From positions 1 through 64,000 of the forward strand of contig NZ_SEBR01000010.1 of the NCBI RefSeq assembly GCF_004295795.1: a DNA stretch of 64,000 nucleotides. The letters are read 5' to 3'. Made by a program: the position numbers and the translations under genes. Shown here piece after piece: positions 7,555 to 37,729 of this stretch (position 1 is the first letter of the stretch; every line of letters begins with the position of its first letter). The DNA is from Flavobacterium sp. GTDB lineage: Bacteria; Bacteroidota; Bacteroidia; Flavobacteriales; Flavobacteriaceae. Under the pieces are notes generated by a model. It saw only the letters and a list, made by a program, of their open reading frames with translations, was not told the DNA's origin and searched no databases.

Positions 7555-8235
7555 CTAATCTGCGCAGTAGCAGGGTTTGTTTCCGAAGGTATACGTCAGG
7601 GTCAAGCCCGAAAATATATACCAGTCTTTATTGTTCTGGTTTCCGAATCGCAACGTTTCTAGGTCGTCGTTCTTCGGATTGCTTCCGTCGAGGTTGTCGG
7701 TAAAGGTCCAACGGGCGCCAATTTCGGCACCCAAAACCCAATGGTCGGCAATATTCGATTTGATTCCGACGGTAATCGGGACCGCAAACGAAAAGGCGCG
7801 GTAATCGATTTTGTATCCGTCGAGCTGATACAATTCATCGTAAATGAAAAAGTTCAACCCCGTAAATACATAGGGAGTGATTTTCTTCTTTCCGTCGTGC
7901 AGGTTGAAATCGAAAAAGTTGAATTCAAGTCCGGCCGAAAATTCCTTCAGGTCGTTCTGGAAATTGAAACCTCTCGTCTTTCTTGCGGGCATATCAGAAT
8001 CGAGGTCGTTCGCCGTCAGTTTCGTTTGGTTGTAACCGAATCTCCAACTGTGACGCGGGCTTCGGTTCCATTTGTACAGCACGCCGTATGCAAACTCGTT
8101 AGGGTTGATGTAATTCGTCTTTCCTACATCGCCAATAAAATTACTGCCGCCCAAAAATACCCCGATCTCGTGAATCTGGGCCGTCGAGGCGTTCAGGCCA
8201 AAAATGCAAACGAATAAGACAAAAATCCTTTTCAT
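7555..8235 (-). CDS. DUF6089 family outer membrane protein
   Basis: Start chosen at ATG 8235, which gives a signal peptide (MKRIFVLFVCIFGLNASTAQ); the track's start adds ten residues. The 226-aa mature region (HEIGVFLGGSNFIGDVGKTNYINPNEFAYGVLYKWN) is typical of DUF6089, a small beta-barrel family found upstream of uppS in Flavobacteriia. The end, TFGNKPCYCAD, contains two Cys. The stop codon is directly adjacent to the uppS start, indicating tight coupling. Function is not known; location with uppS and bamA suggests an envelope role. Confidence 0.85.
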   Translation of the reverse strand: MKRIFVLFVCIFGLNASTAQIHEIGVFLGGSNFIGDVGKTNYINPNEFAYGVLYKWNRSPRHSWRFGYNQTKLTANDLDSDMPARKTRGFNFQNDLKEFSAGLEFNFFDFNLHDGKKKITPYVFTGLNFFIYDELYQLDGYKIDYRAFSFAVPITVGIKSNIADHWVLGAEIGARWTFTDNLDGSNPKNDDLETLRFGNQNNKDWYIFSGLTLTYTFGNKPCYCAD

Positions 8236-8399
8236 CGATTTGAAAATAGCGTGCAAATATAACAATTAAGACCACTCCCGAAGGCTTTTCGGTTTAATTC
8301 TCTCAAATTATAACACACAGTTAGTGAATAATTTTGCGCAAAAGTCAATTAAGAAACGGGTCGGGAAGCGTTAATAGTATTGCCCGCCTGAAATTTGCG

Positions 8400-9284
8400 T
8401 CAATTTCTCTTGTCTTCGCCCCATAAAAGTTTGGCGCGCAATGTCTTGAGAAAAGTGTCTCCGGGAACTTCGACCATATTGATCCTGAAAGGCGTTTTCC
8501 TGATGATGAGTTCCGATTCGTTTTTGACCGAAGCGATGCGCGAATCGAGTGAAACCAAGTATTGTTCCTCGCGTCCGGAAACTTTCAATCGAATTTCGGT
8601 ATTGTCCGGAATCACCAATGGACGGGCATTTAGATTGTGCGGTGCGATTGGCGTAATGACCAAACTTTCGGCTTTCGGTGTCAGGATCGGGCCGCCGCAA
8701 CTCAGCGAGTATCCGGTGGAACCTGTTGGCGTGGAAATGATCAAACCGTCCGCCCAATACGAATTCAGGTATTCGCCGTCGAGCCAGGTTTCGATCGTGA
8801 TCATCGAGGTCGTGTCTTTTCGGCTGACCGAAACCTCGTTCATCGCAAAGTTGATTTCCTTTACGGATGCGATTTCGGGCACGACTTCCAGACTCAACAA
8901 CGTTCGGGGCGAAATCGTGAAATTCCTATCGATCACATATTGCATGAAAACATCGATATGGTCGCGCTGGACGCTTGCCAGGAAACCCAGTCGGCCCGCG
9001 TTTATTCCCAAAATAGGGATTCCGAGGTCGCGTACCAAAGTCGCTGCACGCAAGATTGTTCCGTCGCCGCCGATCGAGATCATGATGTCGAAACCCGAAT
9101 CAAGATCTGTGTATGAAGAAAAAGTCTTGTATTCTTTTTTGACGATTTCCTTCTCGTACAAAAGTTTCAGAAAATCGGCTTCTATGTAAAGATCGACCTT
9201 GTTTTTGTTGAAGAAGATGAAAATGTCCCTGATGATCGGCTCGGTACTGTTTTGATAGTATTGTCCGTAAATGGCGACTTTCAT
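8400..9284 (-). CDS. nadK: NAD kinase
   Basis: A 294-aa cytosolic enzyme that phosphorylates NAD to NADP. It shows the kinase signature ISIGGDGTILRAA, the NAGRLGFLA segment, and the conserved TPTGSTGYSLSCGGPI motif. Its ATG overlaps the TGA of the upstream CBS-domain gene (ATGA), so the two are translationally coupled. A gap of about 165 bp then precedes DUF6089. Confidence 0.96.
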   Translation of the reverse strand: MKVAIYGQYYQNSTEPIIRDIFIFFNKNKVDLYIEADFLKLLYEKEIVKKEYKTFSSYTDLDSGFDIMISIGGDGTILRAATLVRDLGIPILGINAGRLGFLASVQRDHIDVFMQYVIDRNFTISPRTLLSLEVVPEIASVKEINFAMNEVSVSRKDTTSMITIETWLDGEYLNSYWADGLIISTPTGSTGYSLSCGGPILTPKAESLVITPIAPHNLNARPLVIPDNTEIRLKVSGREEQYLVSLDSRIASVKNESELIIRKTPFRINMVEVPGDTFLKTLRAKLLWGEDKRN

Positions 9285-9943
9285 CAGATGTTCAGGTATT
9301 TGTCGAGATAGTCAGAACGGTCGCGCAAACTGCTCAGGTAAGTATCCTCCTGGTGTTCTGAGATGATTTCGTAATTGTATCGGCGAAAAGTCTGCAAGAT
9401 GTCGTTCATGCCGCCAATTGCGATTTTTACAGTCACCTGAACCGTGTCGATCGTCGCTTCGGAAATGAACATCCCAAGGATTTTTCCGTTGTTGCTCTCG
9501 ACGATTTGTGTGATTTGTCCTATGGAATAATCGGCGATCCCTTTTTCGATGATGATGATTCCGCCTTGTTCTTTCAAGAATGGTGTCTCGTGAAAAAGCT
9601 TTATGATGTCGGAACTTTCGTAATATCCGACATACTTGTTGGTCTCATCCAGCACTGGAACGACGTTGGTCTCGTATCTCGCAAAAAGCTCCAAAACATC
9701 GAGCCAAAGCATGTTCGGCCTGGCGAAAAAACCTTCCAAAGCGTACCTGTAGTCGGCGATTTCCTTTTCGTCCTCAAACGTCTCGACGTCGTCAGCGCCA
9801 ACCGAACCGATGTAAACCGAATCTTCTACGATAGGAAAATGCGTGAAGTGTTCTTCGGCAAAAAATTCCTTGATCGCGCCGATAGTTTCCTTCGTGTCGA
9901 TAGGTCTGTAGTCGTTGTTGATATATTCGGAAATCTCGCTCAT
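9284..9943 (-). CDS. CBS domain-containing protein
   Basis: A 219-aa protein with a tandem CBS pair in the first ~125 residues (ending with NVVPVLDETNKYVGYYESSDIIKLF) and an ACT-like C-terminal part (GQITQIVESNNGKILGMFISEATIDTVQVTVKIAIGGMNDILQTFRRYNYEI). CBS pairs bind adenine nucleotides, so this is a candidate nucleotide sensor. The ATGA overlap with nadK suggests a link to NAD(P) or nucleotide status. That link is inferred from position only. Confidence 0.82.
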   Translation of the reverse strand: MSEISEYINNDYRPIDTKETIGAIKEFFAEEHFTHFPIVEDSVYIGSVGADDVETFEDEKEIADYRYALEGFFARPNMLWLDVLELFARYETNVVPVLDETNKYVGYYESSDIIKLFHETPFLKEQGGIIIIEKGIADYSIGQITQIVESNNGKILGMFISEATIDTVQVTVKIAIGGMNDILQTFRRYNYEIISEHQEDTYLSSLRDRSDYLDKYLNI

Positions 9944-10011
9944 CTCGCCAATGCTGGGTTTGAGAATGCAAATTAATCAAAAAATGCAACAAACGCCCTT
10001 GTTTAACTTTG

Positions 10012-32555: not shown

Positions 32556-33521
32556 CTATTTCTTCATCACTTTCACCACTTTTGTCTTTTCCCCAATCTT
32601 GATTTTCGCCAGATATATTCCTATCGGCAAATGCGTCAGATCGATCGTGTTTCCCGATATTTTCTGAGGTGCGACAACCATTTTTCCGTCGAGGGCAAAA
32701 ATCGAAAATACGCAATTTTCGTCTGAGTTGACATGGATTTCTCCGGATGTCGGATTCGGATAGACACTGACTTCCGACAAATCCTGATCATTGACGCCAA
32801 GCGATTGCTGATGGATCACACCGACGGCCTGCAGGTCGAATCCGCAAGAATTGAATGGCGTGGGAAACGAATCGTTCACGGCGTTTCCGAAACTGTCTTG
32901 AGAAGCGAAATCAGGGTTGATCGATCCTACGACGTCGATGATTTTGACATGTGTGATACTATTCTTGTCCAAAAGCGCATCGTCAGGCAAATCGGACAAA
33001 TCGAAAGGCGTTCCGTAAAGCGCGGCATATTTTCCGGCGAGATTGTTCAGATACGGCGCAGAAGGCGTTCCGAATGAACCTATTTGGGTCGCGGTCTCCG
33101 TTTGGCTGTGATTCGGAAAACGGAAAAAATGCTGTCCGTCAGAACTCACTTCGACAAATGCCAATTCGAGATAAGCCGTGCTGCCGTTTTCAAAAACCGC
33201 GAAGTCGAACCCTTCGTCATTTCGGACGGCAGAGTCAAAAGTTGCGATCGCAAAACCGCCATCGCCAAGACTTACGGTGTTTCCGTCGGGAAAACCTGTC
33301 GCGTACTCCGGAAGTCCGGCCGAGGCGAAATTGCTTCCGGCGGCGGTAAGAGTCGGATTCGAAATATTGACATACCCGCGCTCGACCGAAATTTCCGTTG
33401 CCCAAGCGACAAAATTCGGGCTTTCTTTGGGAATCGCAGTCGAACCGGCCTCGCCCGCAGCCGGTGGATAACTTTGGGCGAGACAAGTCAGACTTAGAAA
33501 ACAGAGCAGCGAAAAACGCAT
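32556..33521 (-). CDS. T9SS type A secreted protein in the cobalamin riboswitch operon
   Basis: A 321-aa protein with a signal peptide (MRFSLLCFLSLTCLAQ), a beta-rich body, and a type A T9SS tail (VSVYPNPTSGEIHVNS ... GIYLAKIKIGEKTKVVKVMKK). The body contains VSLGDGGFAIATFDSAVRNDEGFDFAVFEN and SSDGQHFFRFPNHSQT, and reads like a carbohydrate-binding/discoidin-type fold, but I cannot name the family. Its ATG overlaps the stop of the beta-propeller gene (TAATG), so it lies in the same riboswitch-controlled transcript. By position it is a candidate accessory protein in cobalamin capture at the surface. That role is inferred. Confidence 0.75.
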   Translation of the reverse strand: MRFSLLCFLSLTCLAQSYPPAAGEAGSTAIPKESPNFVAWATEISVERGYVNISNPTLTAAGSNFASAGLPEYATGFPDGNTVSLGDGGFAIATFDSAVRNDEGFDFAVFENGSTAYLELAFVEVSSDGQHFFRFPNHSQTETATQIGSFGTPSAPYLNNLAGKYAALYGTPFDLSDLPDDALLDKNSITHVKIIDVVGSINPDFASQDSFGNAVNDSFPTPFNSCGFDLQAVGVIHQQSLGVNDQDLSEVSVYPNPTSGEIHVNSDENCVFSIFALDGKMVVAPQKISGNTIDLTHLPIGIYLAKIKIGEKTKVVKVMKK

Positions 33522-34816
33522 TATTTTACGAGGATTTTTGTCGTGACGACGCCTTTTTGCGTGGCGATTTGCGCCAGATATTGTCCCGATTGCAAGCTTG
33601 TCACGTCAATACCAAGTTGGTTTGACGCATTTTGTTCGAGTACTTTTCGTCCGGTGAGATCGAATAGAGAGACCGGGACGACTTCTTCGGAATTCACGAA
33701 AAACTTGTCGCTTGTTGGGTTTGGATACGCGAACAACGCCAATTTTCGAGTAGGATTCGGAACGGACAAATTCGGTTCGGCTTTGTAGAAACCGTTCGGG
33801 ATCACGCCGACGACATAATTTGTGACTGCCGTGCCGTTAGCGTCATAAACAAAGGCCGTTCCTGGGGAAACGTAATTTCCGGCGTCGGCTACATAGAGTT
33901 TTCCGTCGATGAAATTGAGTCCGTAAATGCCGTAAACGCCTTGTTCGCCAAGAGCGATTATCGCCGGAGCGTTCAATCCCAAAGAAGAGATTTCGCCTTT
34001 GTACACGTTCGCGTCGTTGGTAAAGAAAATACTTCCGTTGCCCGAACTTTGTAAATTCGCCGGATTCATGCCGTTCCAAGTAAGGCTTTCCTCGACCTCA
34101 TTGTCGCTGAGGTCGATCTTGTAAAGTCCGCCGGAGGTTTGCGTTCCTGACCAAGACGGTTTCCCGCCGCACAAAACGTAAAGGAATCCGTTGTCGACCA
34201 CATAAGAATTCGGGACGTCGCCAACTGCAATCGAAGTCGTGAGCGTCTCGGTTTGAGGATTCACGATCGATACCGAATTCCCGAATCCGTAACCGCCTTG
34301 ATGCAAAATGTAAAGTTGGTTATTGATTGCCGCAATGCGCTCGGCACCTTCAGCAAGCGGGATCGTGTTTTCCACGATGTTAGTTTCCAAATCGAGAACC
34401 GCGAGGTAGTCGTCGTTTGCGTTTGCGCCGCTTCCCCAATTGGTAATGAAGCCTTTTCCATCGACAAAAGCCATATACCGCGGATTGTTCAAACCTGTAC
34501 TAACAGTAGCGACGAGTTCGAAAGTCATGCGGTCGACGATTTTTATCGTGTTGGAAATATTGAGTACGATGTAAGCGTAATTTCCGTAGAACGTCAGGCT
34601 TTGTGCCGTGTCACCCAAAGATCCGGCCGACGGATTCGCGCTTGCGAAAATGTTGTTCTGTAGCGATCCTGAGTTTGGGATGTAGGAAACCGAGGCGTTG
34701 TTGCTTCCGGCTCCGCCTTCGTTGAGCACGAAAATGCCGTTGTCGAACGATTGCGCATCGGCTGCGACCGAAATCAGTCCAAAAAGCATTGCAAAAAAAG
34801 TGTAGATATGTTTCAT
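33521..34816 (-). CDS. DUF5074/YncE-like beta-propeller with T9SS type A domain; BtuG-like candidate
   Basis: ATG at 34816 opens a signal peptide (MKHIYTFFAMLFGLISVAADAQ); the track's longer start is not credible. The 431-aa protein has blade-like repeats (YAYIVLNISNTIKIVDRMTFELVATVSTGLNNPRYMAF, YLAVLDLETNIVENTIPLAEGAERIAAINNQLYILH, VSIVNPQTETLTTSIAVGDVPNSYVVDNGFLYVLCGG), then a type A T9SS tail (LALFAYPNPTSDKFFVNS ... AQIATQKGVVTTKILVK). In Bacteroides, YncE-like BtuG lipoproteins bind B12 at the surface and hand it to BtuB. The cobalamin riboswitch directly upstream makes a BtuG-like role likely here. A T9SS tail in place of a lipid anchor is notable. Confidence 0.82.
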   Translation of the reverse strand: MKHIYTFFAMLFGLISVAADAQSFDNGIFVLNEGGAGSNNASVSYIPNSGSLQNNIFASANPSAGSLGDTAQSLTFYGNYAYIVLNISNTIKIVDRMTFELVATVSTGLNNPRYMAFVDGKGFITNWGSGANANDDYLAVLDLETNIVENTIPLAEGAERIAAINNQLYILHQGGYGFGNSVSIVNPQTETLTTSIAVGDVPNSYVVDNGFLYVLCGGKPSWSGTQTSGGLYKIDLSDNEVEESLTWNGMNPANLQSSGNGSIFFTNDANVYKGEISSLGLNAPAIIALGEQGVYGIYGLNFIDGKLYVADAGNYVSPGTAFVYDANGTAVTNYVVGVIPNGFYKAEPNLSVPNPTRKLALFAYPNPTSDKFFVNSEEVVPVSLFDLTGRKVLEQNASNQLGIDVTSLQSGQYLAQIATQKGVVTTKILVK

Positions 34817-34918
34817 GTTACAAAATTTACAAATGAAACATCGGGAAATGGAGAAGCGGGCGCGAACGCCAAAATGCCTCAAATCTTTTTTCCCGAAGAT
34901 TCGCGATGAATGTCGATT

Positions 34919-35082
34919 GAGGCAGGTCTCCTGGCTTGCGTCTTGGCCGCGCCTTCCCATATTTTCATACAGTGGCTTTAGGATGCGGCAAGCTTTTTAG
35001 CTTACAGTTGCGGGAACAGCTTTGGATTTTCACCAAATTCCCTTTTAATGCTTTGCGCGAAAAACGATCGGCAAGGCAACCA
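34919..35082 (-). promoter_or_regulatory. Cobalamin riboswitch upstream of the beta-propeller gene
   Basis: Read on the minus strand, the segment has the conserved elements in order: GGGAATTTGGTGAAAATCC, GCTGTTCCCGCAACTGTAAG, AAGCCACTGTATG, a GGGAAGG box, and the B12 box AGCCAGGAGACCTGCC. It lies ~100 nt upstream of the start codon at 34816. Binding of adenosylcobalamin normally represses downstream genes. Confidence 0.93.
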
Positions 35083-35194
35083 AAATCGCGGCAAAGGTAA
35101 AGCAATTCTTTTCAAATTGGCAAAACGCTAAGAATTCCTTGGAATTTAAACGATACCTTTGCGGCTTTTAAGTTCTTTCTTAATTCTTCAACCG

Positions 35195-35345
35195 GGAAAG
35201 GTTGCATGTAACGTGCATTAATAGGGAATCGTGTGCAAATCACGAGCTGTCGCGCAACTGTAAGTAACATGAGGTTTCATCTTTTTGTCCACTGTTTTTG
35301 AAATGGAAGGCAGATGAAAGCGTTACGAGCCAGGAGACCTGCCTT
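35195..35345 (+). promoter_or_regulatory. Cobalamin riboswitch upstream of fabH
   Basis: The plus strand shows GGTTGCATGTAACGTGC, AGGGAATCGTGTGCAAATCACGAGCTGT, CGCGCAACTGTAAG, TCCACTG, GGAAGGCAG, and the B12 box AGCCAGGAGACCTGCC. The B12 box runs straight into TTTTTT, and CTGCCT can pair with AGGCAG at 35308-35313, so an intrinsic terminator may be part of the expression platform. It is divergent from the other riboswitch, with ~110 bp between them. Confidence 0.92.
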
Positions 35346-35529
35346 TTTTGAATTGACGGTACTTTCGCGATTTGAAGTGTTTGTCAGGTGATGTCTGTTT
35401 TCCGGAAGCCTTTGTTTTCGGGAGATCGCTTTTTCAAAACGTCGCCTTTTCAATGATTTCCGCAAATTACCTCGAAGCGAGGCAGGATTTTTGACGACAA
35501 CAACCAATCAATAAAAAGTTGGGCGGCGA
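35346..35529 (+). other. Leader between the plus-strand riboswitch and fabH
   Basis: About 180 nt without a convincing gene. Two tiny frames follow one another (MSVFRKPLFSGDRFFKTSPFQ and MISANYLEARQDF); neither is recognisable. Together with 34817-35194 this completes the 713-bp gene-free stretch, which otherwise holds the two riboswitches and the promoter region between them. Confidence 0.5.
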
Positions 35530-36579
35530 ATGTTTATTTCCGTCAAGCGGATTTTTCGCGCCCTTTCAGCACATCAAGACAACACAGTGAACCACAACCA
35601 AAAAACCACAGCAAGAATTTCAGGCATTGGCGGATTCGTTCCAGACACGATTCTCGACAACGCGCAACTCGAGCAAATGGTCGATACAAGCGATCTTTGG
35701 ATTACCTCGCGAACCGGGATCAAACAACGAAGAATTGTCGGGAACGACGATTTTGCGACTTCGGACCTTGCTGCGAAAGCGATCGCGAATCTTTTCGAAA
35801 ACACTTCGATTTTACCCGATCAAGTCGAATGCGTGATTCTCGCCACGGCAACTCCGGATGAAATGCTCGCGCCTACGGCAGCTGTCGTATGTCAAAAATC
35901 GGGGCTCGAAAAAGCCTGGGGATTCGACCTTGGCGCAGCGTGCAGCGGATTTCTATACGCGTTGTCAGTAGGAGCAAGCCTCATCGAAAGCGGACGACAC
36001 ACACACGTAATTGTAGTCGGCGCAGACAAAATGAGTTCGATCGTGAATTACGAAGACCGAAACACCTGCATTCTTTTTGGTGACGGAGCCGGAGCGGTTT
36101 TGCTTTCGGCGAATTACGATGGTTTTGGCGTGCAACAAAGCATTTTTGGTTCGGACGGAGACGGCGCGCAATATCTTTCGGTTCCCGCCGGAGGTTCCAA
36201 AATGCCCGCCTCGCAGGAAACTGTCGCATCCAAACAACATTTCGTGCAACAAGACGGGAAAACCGTTTTCAAGCAGGCAGTGCGCAAGATGGGCGAGAGT
36301 TGCATCGAGCTTTTGAATCTGGCCAAAATCGGGAACGAACAGGTCGATTGGGTAATTCCGCATCAGGCGAACCTTCGCATCATAAAAGCCGTCGGTGAAC
36401 AAATCGGTATCGATCCCGACAAGTTCAAGATCAATATCGAACGTTACGGAAACACAACCGCAGCCACGATTCCACTCGCGCTTTGGGATTTCAAAGACGA
36501 TTTCAAAGCGGGCGACAATGTGGTTTTGACGGCGTTTGGCGCGGGATTCACTTGGGGAAGTACCTATGTGAAATGGTAA
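35530..36579 (+). CDS. fabH: Beta-ketoacyl-ACP synthase III family protein
   Basis: A thiolase-fold enzyme that condenses an acyl-CoA with malonyl-ACP. The catalytic triad is present: Cys in DLGAACSGFLYAL, His in WVIPHQANLRII, and Asn in ERYGNTTAATIPLAL. GAGFTWGS closes the chain. The ATG at 35530 gives 349 aa; GTG at 35587 (VNHNQKTTARISGIGGFVPD) gives 330 aa, closer to typical FabH, and may be the true start. The gene overlaps the next one by 7 bp. Its place behind a cobalamin riboswitch is unusual; it may not be the housekeeping copy. Confidence 0.88.
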   Translation: MFISVKRIFRALSAHQDNTVNHNQKTTARISGIGGFVPDTILDNAQLEQMVDTSDLWITSRTGIKQRRIVGNDDFATSDLAAKAIANLFENTSILPDQVECVILATATPDEMLAPTAAVVCQKSGLEKAWGFDLGAACSGFLYALSVGASLIESGRHTHVIVVGADKMSSIVNYEDRNTCILFGDGAGAVLLSANYDGFGVQQSIFGSDGDGAQYLSVPAGGSKMPASQETVASKQHFVQQDGKTVFKQAVRKMGESCIELLNLAKIGNEQVDWVIPHQANLRIIKAVGEQIGIDPDKFKINIERYGNTTAATIPLALWDFKDDFKAGDNVVLTAFGAGFTWGSTYVKW

Positions 36580-37273
36580 AATCGGATGCAAAAAAGACGT
36601 ATTTCAATTGGAGCAGCGGCAAAGATTCGGCCATGGCGCTTTTTGAGTTGTTGCAGGATAAAAGCTATGATGTCTCGTATTTGCTGACTTCGGTAAATGC
36701 CGTTTTGGATCGGGTTACGATGCATGGCGTTCGGGCGGAATTACTCGACAAACAATTGGAAGCGATTGGAATTCCGAGCGGAAAAGTGCTTTTGCCCGAG
36801 CATCCGACAAATCTCGAGTACGAGAAATTGATGGCTCAAAAAGTGTCCGAACTAAAACAAGACGGTTTTACCCATGCGGCTTTCGGCGATATTTTCCTGG
36901 AGGACTTGCGGATTTATCGGGAAACACAATTGGCATCTTTTGGAATCGAGACCGTTTTTCCGATTTGGGGAAGAAACACAAAGGATTTGATGCGGAATTT
37001 CGTGCAATCCGGATGCAAGGCGATCGTGGTTTGTGCCGATGCGTCGAAGCTCGACAAAGTTGGGTCGGAAAAGCAATCGATGCCGATTTTGTCGATTCGC
37101 TTCCCGAAAATGTCGATGCTTGCGGCGAAAATGGTGAATTCCATACGTTTTGTTTCGACGCTCCGTTTTTTGCGAATCCAGTCGCTTTTTCGGTTGGGGA
37201 AATCGTTTATCGCGAATATGAATCCGAAGGTTGCCAATCCGGATTCTGGTTTTGTGACTTGCTTCCGGCCTAA
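36573..37273 (+). pseudogene. PP-loop ATPase, diphthine-ammonia ligase family (frameshifted)
   Basis: ATG at 36573 opens the family's start (KKTYFNWSSGKDSAMALFEL, the PP-loop, then HGVRAELLDKQLEAIGIP and AAFGDIFLEDLRIYRE). The frame stays good to CADASKLDK at ~37058, after which the open frame becomes nonsense. The expected C-terminus continues in the -1 frame: SWVGKAIDADFVDSLPENVDACGENGEFHTFCFDAPFFANP ... FWFCDLLPA, TAA at 37271-37273. Adding one A to the AAA at 37056-37058 restores LDKSWVGKAID and a 233-aa protein. It is either a real lesion or an assembly error. In bacteria the family's substrate is uncertain. Confidence 0.88.
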
Positions 37274-37336
37274 AAAATCCGAAATAAATCAACGATAAAA
37301 AAAACTTCATCGCACGCAAAATGTGTGAAATACCTT

Positions 37337-37729
37337 ATGGAAATGACAAGAGAAGAGAGAATTGCGAAGTCAGAAACCCGAATTTTTAAAGCCGTTTTTC
37401 CCAATACGACCAATCATTACGACACACTTTTCGGCGGAACGGCCATGCAGCTTATGGACGAAGTGGCTTTTATCACAGCCACGCGTTTTAGCAGACAGCG
37501 AATGGTGACCGTAAGTAGCGATCGCATCGATTTCAAAAAGGCAATTCCGGGAGGAACGATTATCGAATTGATCGGGAAAGTGACTTATCTGGGAAATACG
37601 AGTCTCAAGGTCAAAGTCGATATCTACATCGAGCAAATGTATTCGGAACATCGCGAAAAGGCCGTGAGTGGCGACTTTACGTTTGTGGCGATCGATGCCG
37701 ACAAAAATTCCGTCAAGATCGAACATTGA
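37337..37729 (+). CDS. Acyl-CoA thioesterase (hotdog fold, YciA-like)
   Basis: A 130-aa cytosolic hotdog protein; ATG 37337 is preferred to the track's GTG four codons earlier. FPNTTNHYDTLFGGTAMQLMDEVAFITATRFSRQRMVTVSSDRIDFKKAIPGG carries the usual active-site region (N-H-x-x-x-x-FGG and the D of MDE). These enzymes hydrolyse acyl-CoA; chain-length preference is unknown. Confidence 0.9.
   Translation: MEMTREERIAKSETRIFKAVFPNTTNHYDTLFGGTAMQLMDEVAFITATRFSRQRMVTVSSDRIDFKKAIPGGTIIELIGKVTYLGNTSLKVKVDIYIEQMYSEHREKAVSGDFTFVAIDADKNSVKIEH

Follow-up and report, generated by a model that had tools for sequence, protein, structure and literature searches.

Two cobalamin riboswitches stand divergently in the window, the 64-kb stretch of a Flavobacterium sp. 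genome that was analysed, and each is followed by genes on its own strand (Table 1). Both match the RF00174 model over the full aptamer (model positions 1-189), at scores well above its gathering score of 31.5 bits. An earlier note, made from the sequence alone, had placed a full B12 riboswitch on the minus strand ahead of a propeller gene, and the complete Rfam match bears this out. The note had missed two features, the second gene of the minus-strand operon (gene 2) and the divergent riboswitch. It had also stated that btuB, btuF, btuC and btuD are missing from the window, which is the case; a different contig of this genome carries them.

Table 1. Features of the double-riboswitch locus (window coordinates)
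Feature	Position	Strand	Details
Gene 2, 321-aa T9SS-tailed protein of an unnamed, B12-locus-linked family	32556..33521	-	ATG overlaps btuG stop
T9SS type A sorting domain of gene 2, residues 253-321	32559..32765	-	TIGR04183, 50.9 bits
T9SS-tailed BtuG paralog (T9SS BtuG), DUF5074 beta-propeller, 431 aa	33521..34816	-	ATG 34816, stop 33523-33521
T9SS type A sorting domain of T9SS BtuG, residues 364-431	33524..33727	-	TIGR04183, 56.3 bits
BtuG-type propeller, residues 25-345	33782..34744	-	Pocket aromatics Y176, Y298, Y315
Signal peptide of T9SS BtuG, residues 1-22	34751..34816	-	Ends SVAADAQ, no lipobox cysteine; aligned with lipoprotein BtuGs
Cobalamin riboswitch of the T9SS-btuG operon	34904..35099	-	Rfam RF00174, 117.5 bits, E 7.9e-29, model 1-189
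Second, divergent cobalamin riboswitch	35182..35360	+	RF00174, 95.8 bits, full model, E 1.3e-22
fabH (KAS III) paralog, downstream of second riboswitch	35530..36579	+	
DUF71/COG2102 ATP-pyrophosphatase	36573..37298	+	Overlaps fabH stop; PF01902, 2.4e-18
YciA-like acyl-CoA thioesterase	37325..37729	+	

The minus-strand operon consists of two genes, a btuG paralog whose product ends in a type IX secretion system (T9SS) sorting domain and, after a one-base overlap (TAATG), gene 2. An alternative open reading frame start for btuG at 34960 was discarded because it falls within the riboswitch aptamer. A perfect 9-bp inverted repeat (ATGTTTCAT...ATGAAACAT, 34808-34841, minus strand) spans the btuG start codon, and inverted repeats at 49 other open reading frame starts of the window reach at most 6 bp. 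Could the hairpin be a conserved expression platform? This was rejected, as it is present in the window but absent from the four relatives with the same stand-alone operon. Elsewhere in the window there is a Flavo-1 small RNA (RF01705, 60525-60668, plus strand, 52.3 bits).

The propeller protein and its genome

The product of the first gene is a propeller of the BtuG type, with BtuG its nearest neighbour both by fold and by sequence. Pfam finds DUF5074 (PF16819) at residues 26-334 (7.7e-17), and among solved structures the Bacteroides proteins BtuG3 and BtuG2 are the closest in sequence (E 2e-24, for BtuG3, to 6e-22), with about 25% identity to BtuG2/3. A PDB fold search with the AlphaFold2 model (mean pLDDT 86) returned chains of BtuG1, BtuG2 and BtuG3 as its first 16 matches (E 1.8e-26 to 5e-20; TM to target 0.86-0.88 for the best of them), and Escherichia coli YncE came at rank 44 (E 1.6e-10). 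The BtuG-like propeller proposed in the earlier note thus stands when put to structure prediction.

The signal peptide is an ordinary one without a lipobox, and the sorting domains of both proteins of the operon score above the curated TIGR04183 cut-off of 23 bits; in T9SS BtuG the Por_Secre_tail family (PF18962) is also found (1.5e-13). Both the peptide and the type A tail of T9SS BtuG had been correctly recognized beforehand. A signal peptide with a C-terminal sorting domain above curated cut-offs is the plan of T9SS type A cargo (TIGR04183/PF18962), and descriptions of such cargo as vitamin-capture proteins were not found in the literature searched. With T9SS tails as common as they are in this genome, the tail alone says little on function.

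How does the protein compare with the BtuG1, BtuG2 and BtuG3 of Bacteroides (8okv, 8bmx, 8bmy, 3dsm; PMC6143338, PMC10404256)? It shares with them the seven-bladed DUF5074 propeller, part of the pocket aromatics, the cobalamin riboswitch and, in its relatives, the link to a btuB operon. It differs in that it lacks a lipobox and lipid anchor, carries a T9SS type A tail, is an extra paralog and lies away from btuB. As the lipobox, a defining feature of BtuG (PMC6143338), is absent, the window protein is described here as a BtuG-clade paralog and is not classed among the BtuG lipoproteins.

The whole genome has three cobalamin riboswitches. The third, on contig C6, precedes a TonB receptor gene, btuB, and then a lipoprotein btuG, with btuF-btuC-btuD divergent beside them; a riboswitch-controlled TonB receptor elsewhere in the genome, which the earlier note had suggested looking for, is therefore present. 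The C6 lipoprotein BtuG (351 aa, signal peptide ending FFVSC) is 35% identical to T9SS BtuG. The T9SS translocon protein SprA is also encoded in the genome (TIGR04189, 2754 bits against a cut-off of 200). The note had envisaged a T9SS version of surface B12 capture in which the sorting tail stood in place of a lipid anchor. The BtuG fold, the B12 riboswitch, the T9SS tail and SprA support the first part. The second calls for correction, as the genome keeps a lipoprotein BtuG in a classical riboswitch-btuB-btuG locus, and replacement of that protein by T9SS BtuG was rejected. Because the classical locus with btuFCD is retained in the same genome, T9SS BtuG represents an extra paralog, an addition to the importer.

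Conservation and the putative binding pocket

A scan of GTDB genomes gave 44 loci with BtuG relatives, and a T9SS-tailed BtuG is encoded in 21 of these. A 581-aa T9SS-tailed protein from one locus (L097, genome G048) was dropped from the BtuG count, since Pfam gives no DUF5074; encoded at 7902-9647 (minus strand), directly behind a riboswitch at 9779-9953, it is another candidate T9SS B12 protein. In the tree, 21 T9SS BtuGs, the window protein included, form one clade (support 97/96) apart from the lipoprotein BtuGs, and the T9SS BtuG of locus L220 (genome G039) falls outside this main clade, with a separate origin. The clade spans Flavobacteriaceae and Weeksellaceae, with 20 species beyond the window. 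The lipobox is absent and the open reading frame intact in all 21 members, and gene 2 always adjoins, or is fused to, the T9SS btuG. A cobalamin riboswitch lies upstream at each of the 20 other loci. Sixteen of these 20 are linked to btuB, and a lipoprotein BtuG is encoded alongside in all 16.

Three layouts are seen among the 20 loci. The commonest (14 species) is riboswitch-btuB-btuG(lipoprotein)-btuG(T9SS)-gene2(T9SS), found in Flavobacterium microcysteis, F. endophyticum, F. cerinum, F. subsaxonicum and F. noncentrifugens, and in Mesonia algae, five Winogradskyella, Moheibacter sediminis, Aequorivita viscosa and one more member of the Flavobacteriaceae. The stand-alone riboswitch-btuG(T9SS)-gene2 order of the window recurs in four (F. 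selenitireducens, F. tegetincola, F. rivuli and F. sp. Sd200). In the remaining two, Bizionia argentinensis and Algibacter miyuki, T9SS BtuG and gene 2 are fused into one protein of 653-655 aa with a single tail; the Bizionia fusion is 43% and 51% identical to the two window proteins. These fusions resemble BtuGH (formerly BtuG1, BT_1490), a BtuG-BtuH fusion (PMC12751083), in joining a propeller to a second domain, but they carry a T9SS tail instead of a lipid anchor, and their gene 2 part is only weakly similar to BtuH.

The riboswitch-led, T9SS-tailed BtuG is confirmed as real, and it is conserved. Might the window's BtuG nevertheless be a non-functional relic, a duplicated copy that picked up a tail by chance? 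Stand-alone copies, the window's among them, do lie away from btuB, but a single supported clade, reading frames intact throughout and the constant company of gene 2 and a riboswitch largely contradict this idea, and it is very improbable.

Does the propeller bind cobalamin? The 21 T9SS BtuGs were compared at the pocket residues of BtuG2 named in PMC10404256. Tyr316 is tyrosine in all 21 and Tyr335 in 20, and the place of Trp194 is taken by tyrosine or phenylalanine in every one. N54-E55-G56, Q93 and P132-R133 are retained; Trp272 and Tyr239 are not, although Trp272 is also missing from BtuG3, a B12 binder. With the pocket partly retained, T9SS BtuG may bind cobalamin. The propeller might instead have drifted to another ligand, such as another tetrapyrrole or a siderophore, with only the regulation by B12 kept. 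The low identity to BtuG2/3 and the loss of Trp272 and Tyr239 are in keeping with drift. Yet Tyr316, Tyr335 and the aromatic at 194 vary less within the T9SS clade than they do in the lipoprotein BtuGs, and the riboswitch (20/20) and btuB (16/20) recur at the other loci, so that a change of ligand appears unlikely.

Gene 2 and the predicted secreted pair

Gene 2 has its own signal peptide and T9SS tail, the remainder has no Pfam family match, and the protein has no confirmed B12-binding relative. A profile built from three sequences picked up full-length homologs in about 117 of the 395 Bacteroidia genomes sampled (~30%). Their neighbourhoods were viewed in a sample of 20 loci from 20 families. 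A cobalamin riboswitch lies within ~7 kb in 14 of these, one further locus, at the end of a contig, includes btuB and BtuG, and another lies next to cobT and cobS, which gives a B12 link in 16 of the 20. The usual operon in this sample is riboswitch-btuB-DUF4465(T9SS)-gene2(T9SS)-BtuG(lipoprotein). TIGR04183 was found in 21 of 23 gene 2 proteins and 11 of 11 DUF4465 proteins, but in only two of 27 BtuGs of the first sample.

DUF4465 (IPR027828), the family of BtuJ, comprises proven B12 binders (PMC12751083, PMC13398666). Its members are likewise accessory proteins of B12 loci, T9SS-tailed in those sampled here (11/11); they belong to another family, however, and are absent from the window operon. 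One of these two sources, a 2026 paper, ascribes periplasmic targeting signals to those DUF4465 proteins that lack a lipobox, and makes no mention of T9SS.

Is gene 2 related to BtuH? A search with its profile (hmmsearch) gave a weak match to residues 428-472 of the BtuG1 chain 8blw_B (E 0.018, best domain i-E 1.2). Alignment by hhalign with the BtuH-like domains of seven Bacteroidales proteins scored 34-37, a local match over only ~40 residues, against controls of at most 22 (60 column-shuffled), 16 (reversed), 13 (BtuG) and 19 (DUF4465). The profile comparison yields a motif common to both, VSLG-GG...F..I.N..G.DF...N. No BtuH or BtuJ fold was present among the 50 best PDB matches of the gene 2 model (pLDDT 82), where only the T9SS tail matched well. 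Gene 2 thus has in common with BtuH (BT_1488, BT_1956; PMC8941943) a motif of some 40 residues and the kind of locus, and differs from it in lacking PKD domains, a lipid anchor and an overall fold match. It is possibly a distant BtuH. In a Bacteroidales protein (L246, 1255-3057, plus strand), BtuH-like and DUF4465 domains are found in one chain.

What might the pair do? The favoured reading, to which a probability of about 0.78 is given, is that the minus-strand operon encodes a pair of accessory proteins, exported by type IX secretion, that capture B12 and are produced under a shortage of cobalamin. Under the predicted control, low cobalamin would let the riboswitch permit synthesis of T9SS BtuG and gene 2, much as the counterparts in B. 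thetaiotaomicron are repressed by B12 (PMC12751083). SprA would carry both proteins across the outer membrane; after removal of their tails, they would either be fixed to the surface of the cell or go free. Outside, they may capture corrinoids and hand these over to the lipoprotein BtuG on BtuB, for import by BtuB. T9SS BtuG would then act as a collector, in the role that BtuH and BtuJ have in Bacteroides. Export, attachment or release and the hand-over to BtuBG are putative steps; the riboswitch, the BtuG-type fold, the T9SS signals, the importer and the conserved operon are seen in the sequences. A methylmalonyl-CoA mutase encoded in the genome points to a need for B12, and the T9SS tails of DUF4465 proteins in comparable operons also speak for this reading.

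A different possibility is that T9SS BtuG is an alternative lid on BtuB, wholly taking the place of the lipoprotein BtuG there. At L220 in genome G039, the gene straight after btuB encodes a T9SS BtuG, and the neighbourhood shown contains no lipoprotein BtuG. In the main clade, however, a lipoprotein BtuG accompanies btuB at all 16 btuB-linked loci, as it does in the window genome. Bacteroides BtuG opens and closes on BtuB by a hinge that includes the linker behind its N-terminal lipid anchor (PMC10404256). Neither a released protein nor one fixed by its C-terminus could use such a hinge, and T9SS BtuG is probably not a hinged lid of BtuB. As the hinge is unusable and a lipoprotein BtuG is normally there for the lid's task, an accessory collector is preferred, and the alternative lid is improbable.

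Flavobacterial type A tails can lead to release as well as to attachment. This lends some weight to a variant of the collector model in which T9SS BtuG and gene 2 are set free as soluble B12 carriers, comparable to protein siderophores. A siderophore-like part has been proposed for the vesicle-borne BtuJ of B. thetaiotaomicron (PMC12751083). No sequence feature separates release from attachment, though, and in open water or soil the cell would lose free carriers if nothing retained them; the variant is a tentative one, less probable than not by some distance.

To our knowledge, the proteins that earlier studies of Bacteroidota describe as capturing B12 at the outer surface are lipoproteins, in some cases borne on vesicles. 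The literature searched, which included neither preprints nor most subscription papers, contained nothing that connects T9SS with BtuG or any other B12 binder. The parts of the system are of known kinds, but their combination, their conservation and the gene 2 family appear to be undescribed. T9SS cargo appears to take on B12 capture in conserved riboswitch operons, in Flavobacteriia and, as accessory proteins, across the sampled Bacteroidia. If this is true, vitamin uptake is added to the functions of T9SS, and the gene 2 family, with homologs in nearly a third of the sampled Bacteroidia genomes, becomes a candidate for B12 uptake. It would also suggest an explanation of those DUF4465 proteins that lack a lipobox and to which the 2026 survey assigned periplasmic targeting signals.

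The plus-strand operon

The second riboswitch precedes genes for FabH, a DUF71 protein and a thioesterase. Another fabH elsewhere in the genome is 52% identical, so the plus-strand fabH is an extra copy; judged by its position, it is probably under B12 control. Related arrangements recur. Riboswitch-fabH-thioesterase is found in genome G033 and riboswitch-DUF71-thioesterase in G024; a riboswitch next to the thioesterase is found in G040, G020 and G018 and, by coordinates, in G472, G481 and G540. Riboswitch and thioesterase are neighbours in at least eight other genomes. The thioesterase or DUF71 also occurs within or beside btu operons (G251, G129, G097, G089 and Aequorivita).

That DUF71 proteins act in B12 salvage has been predicted before (PMC3541065). 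The window gene resembles the DUF71-B12 subgroup of that work in standing under a B12 riboswitch and in having homologs in btu operons. It differs in being joined with fabH and a thioesterase, and the word 'thioesterase' is absent from PMC3541065. No description of fabH and a thioesterase under B12 control was found in the literature searched.

The genome encodes methylmalonyl-CoA mutase, a B12 enzyme. One guess is that the plus-strand operon serves as a drain for propionyl-CoA while the mutase is without B12. Could both operons form a single low-B12 response with two arms? One arm, the pair of T9SS BtuG and a BtuH-like protein, would gather corrinoids outside, away from BtuB. The other, FabH-DUF71-thioesterase, would salvage corrinoids and drain propionyl-CoA or methylmalonyl-CoA while the mutase is idle, and gene 2 would represent a new, widespread B12-binding family. 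Taken as a whole, this scheme is speculative and rather unlikely.

Some further genes next to cobalamin riboswitches came up among the loci surveyed. Short proteins of no known family are encoded beside riboswitches and btuB or btuF at L108 (2740-3528, plus strand), L113 (3104-3928, plus) and L118 (3771-4619, minus), and those of L108 and L113 have T9SS tails by Pfam. Class I ribonucleotide reductase and MetE are the usual B12-independent isozymes. Proteins that resemble these two, by sequence alone, are encoded with cobalamin riboswitches upstream at L106 (5285-7561, minus strand) and L115 (2778-5099, plus strand).
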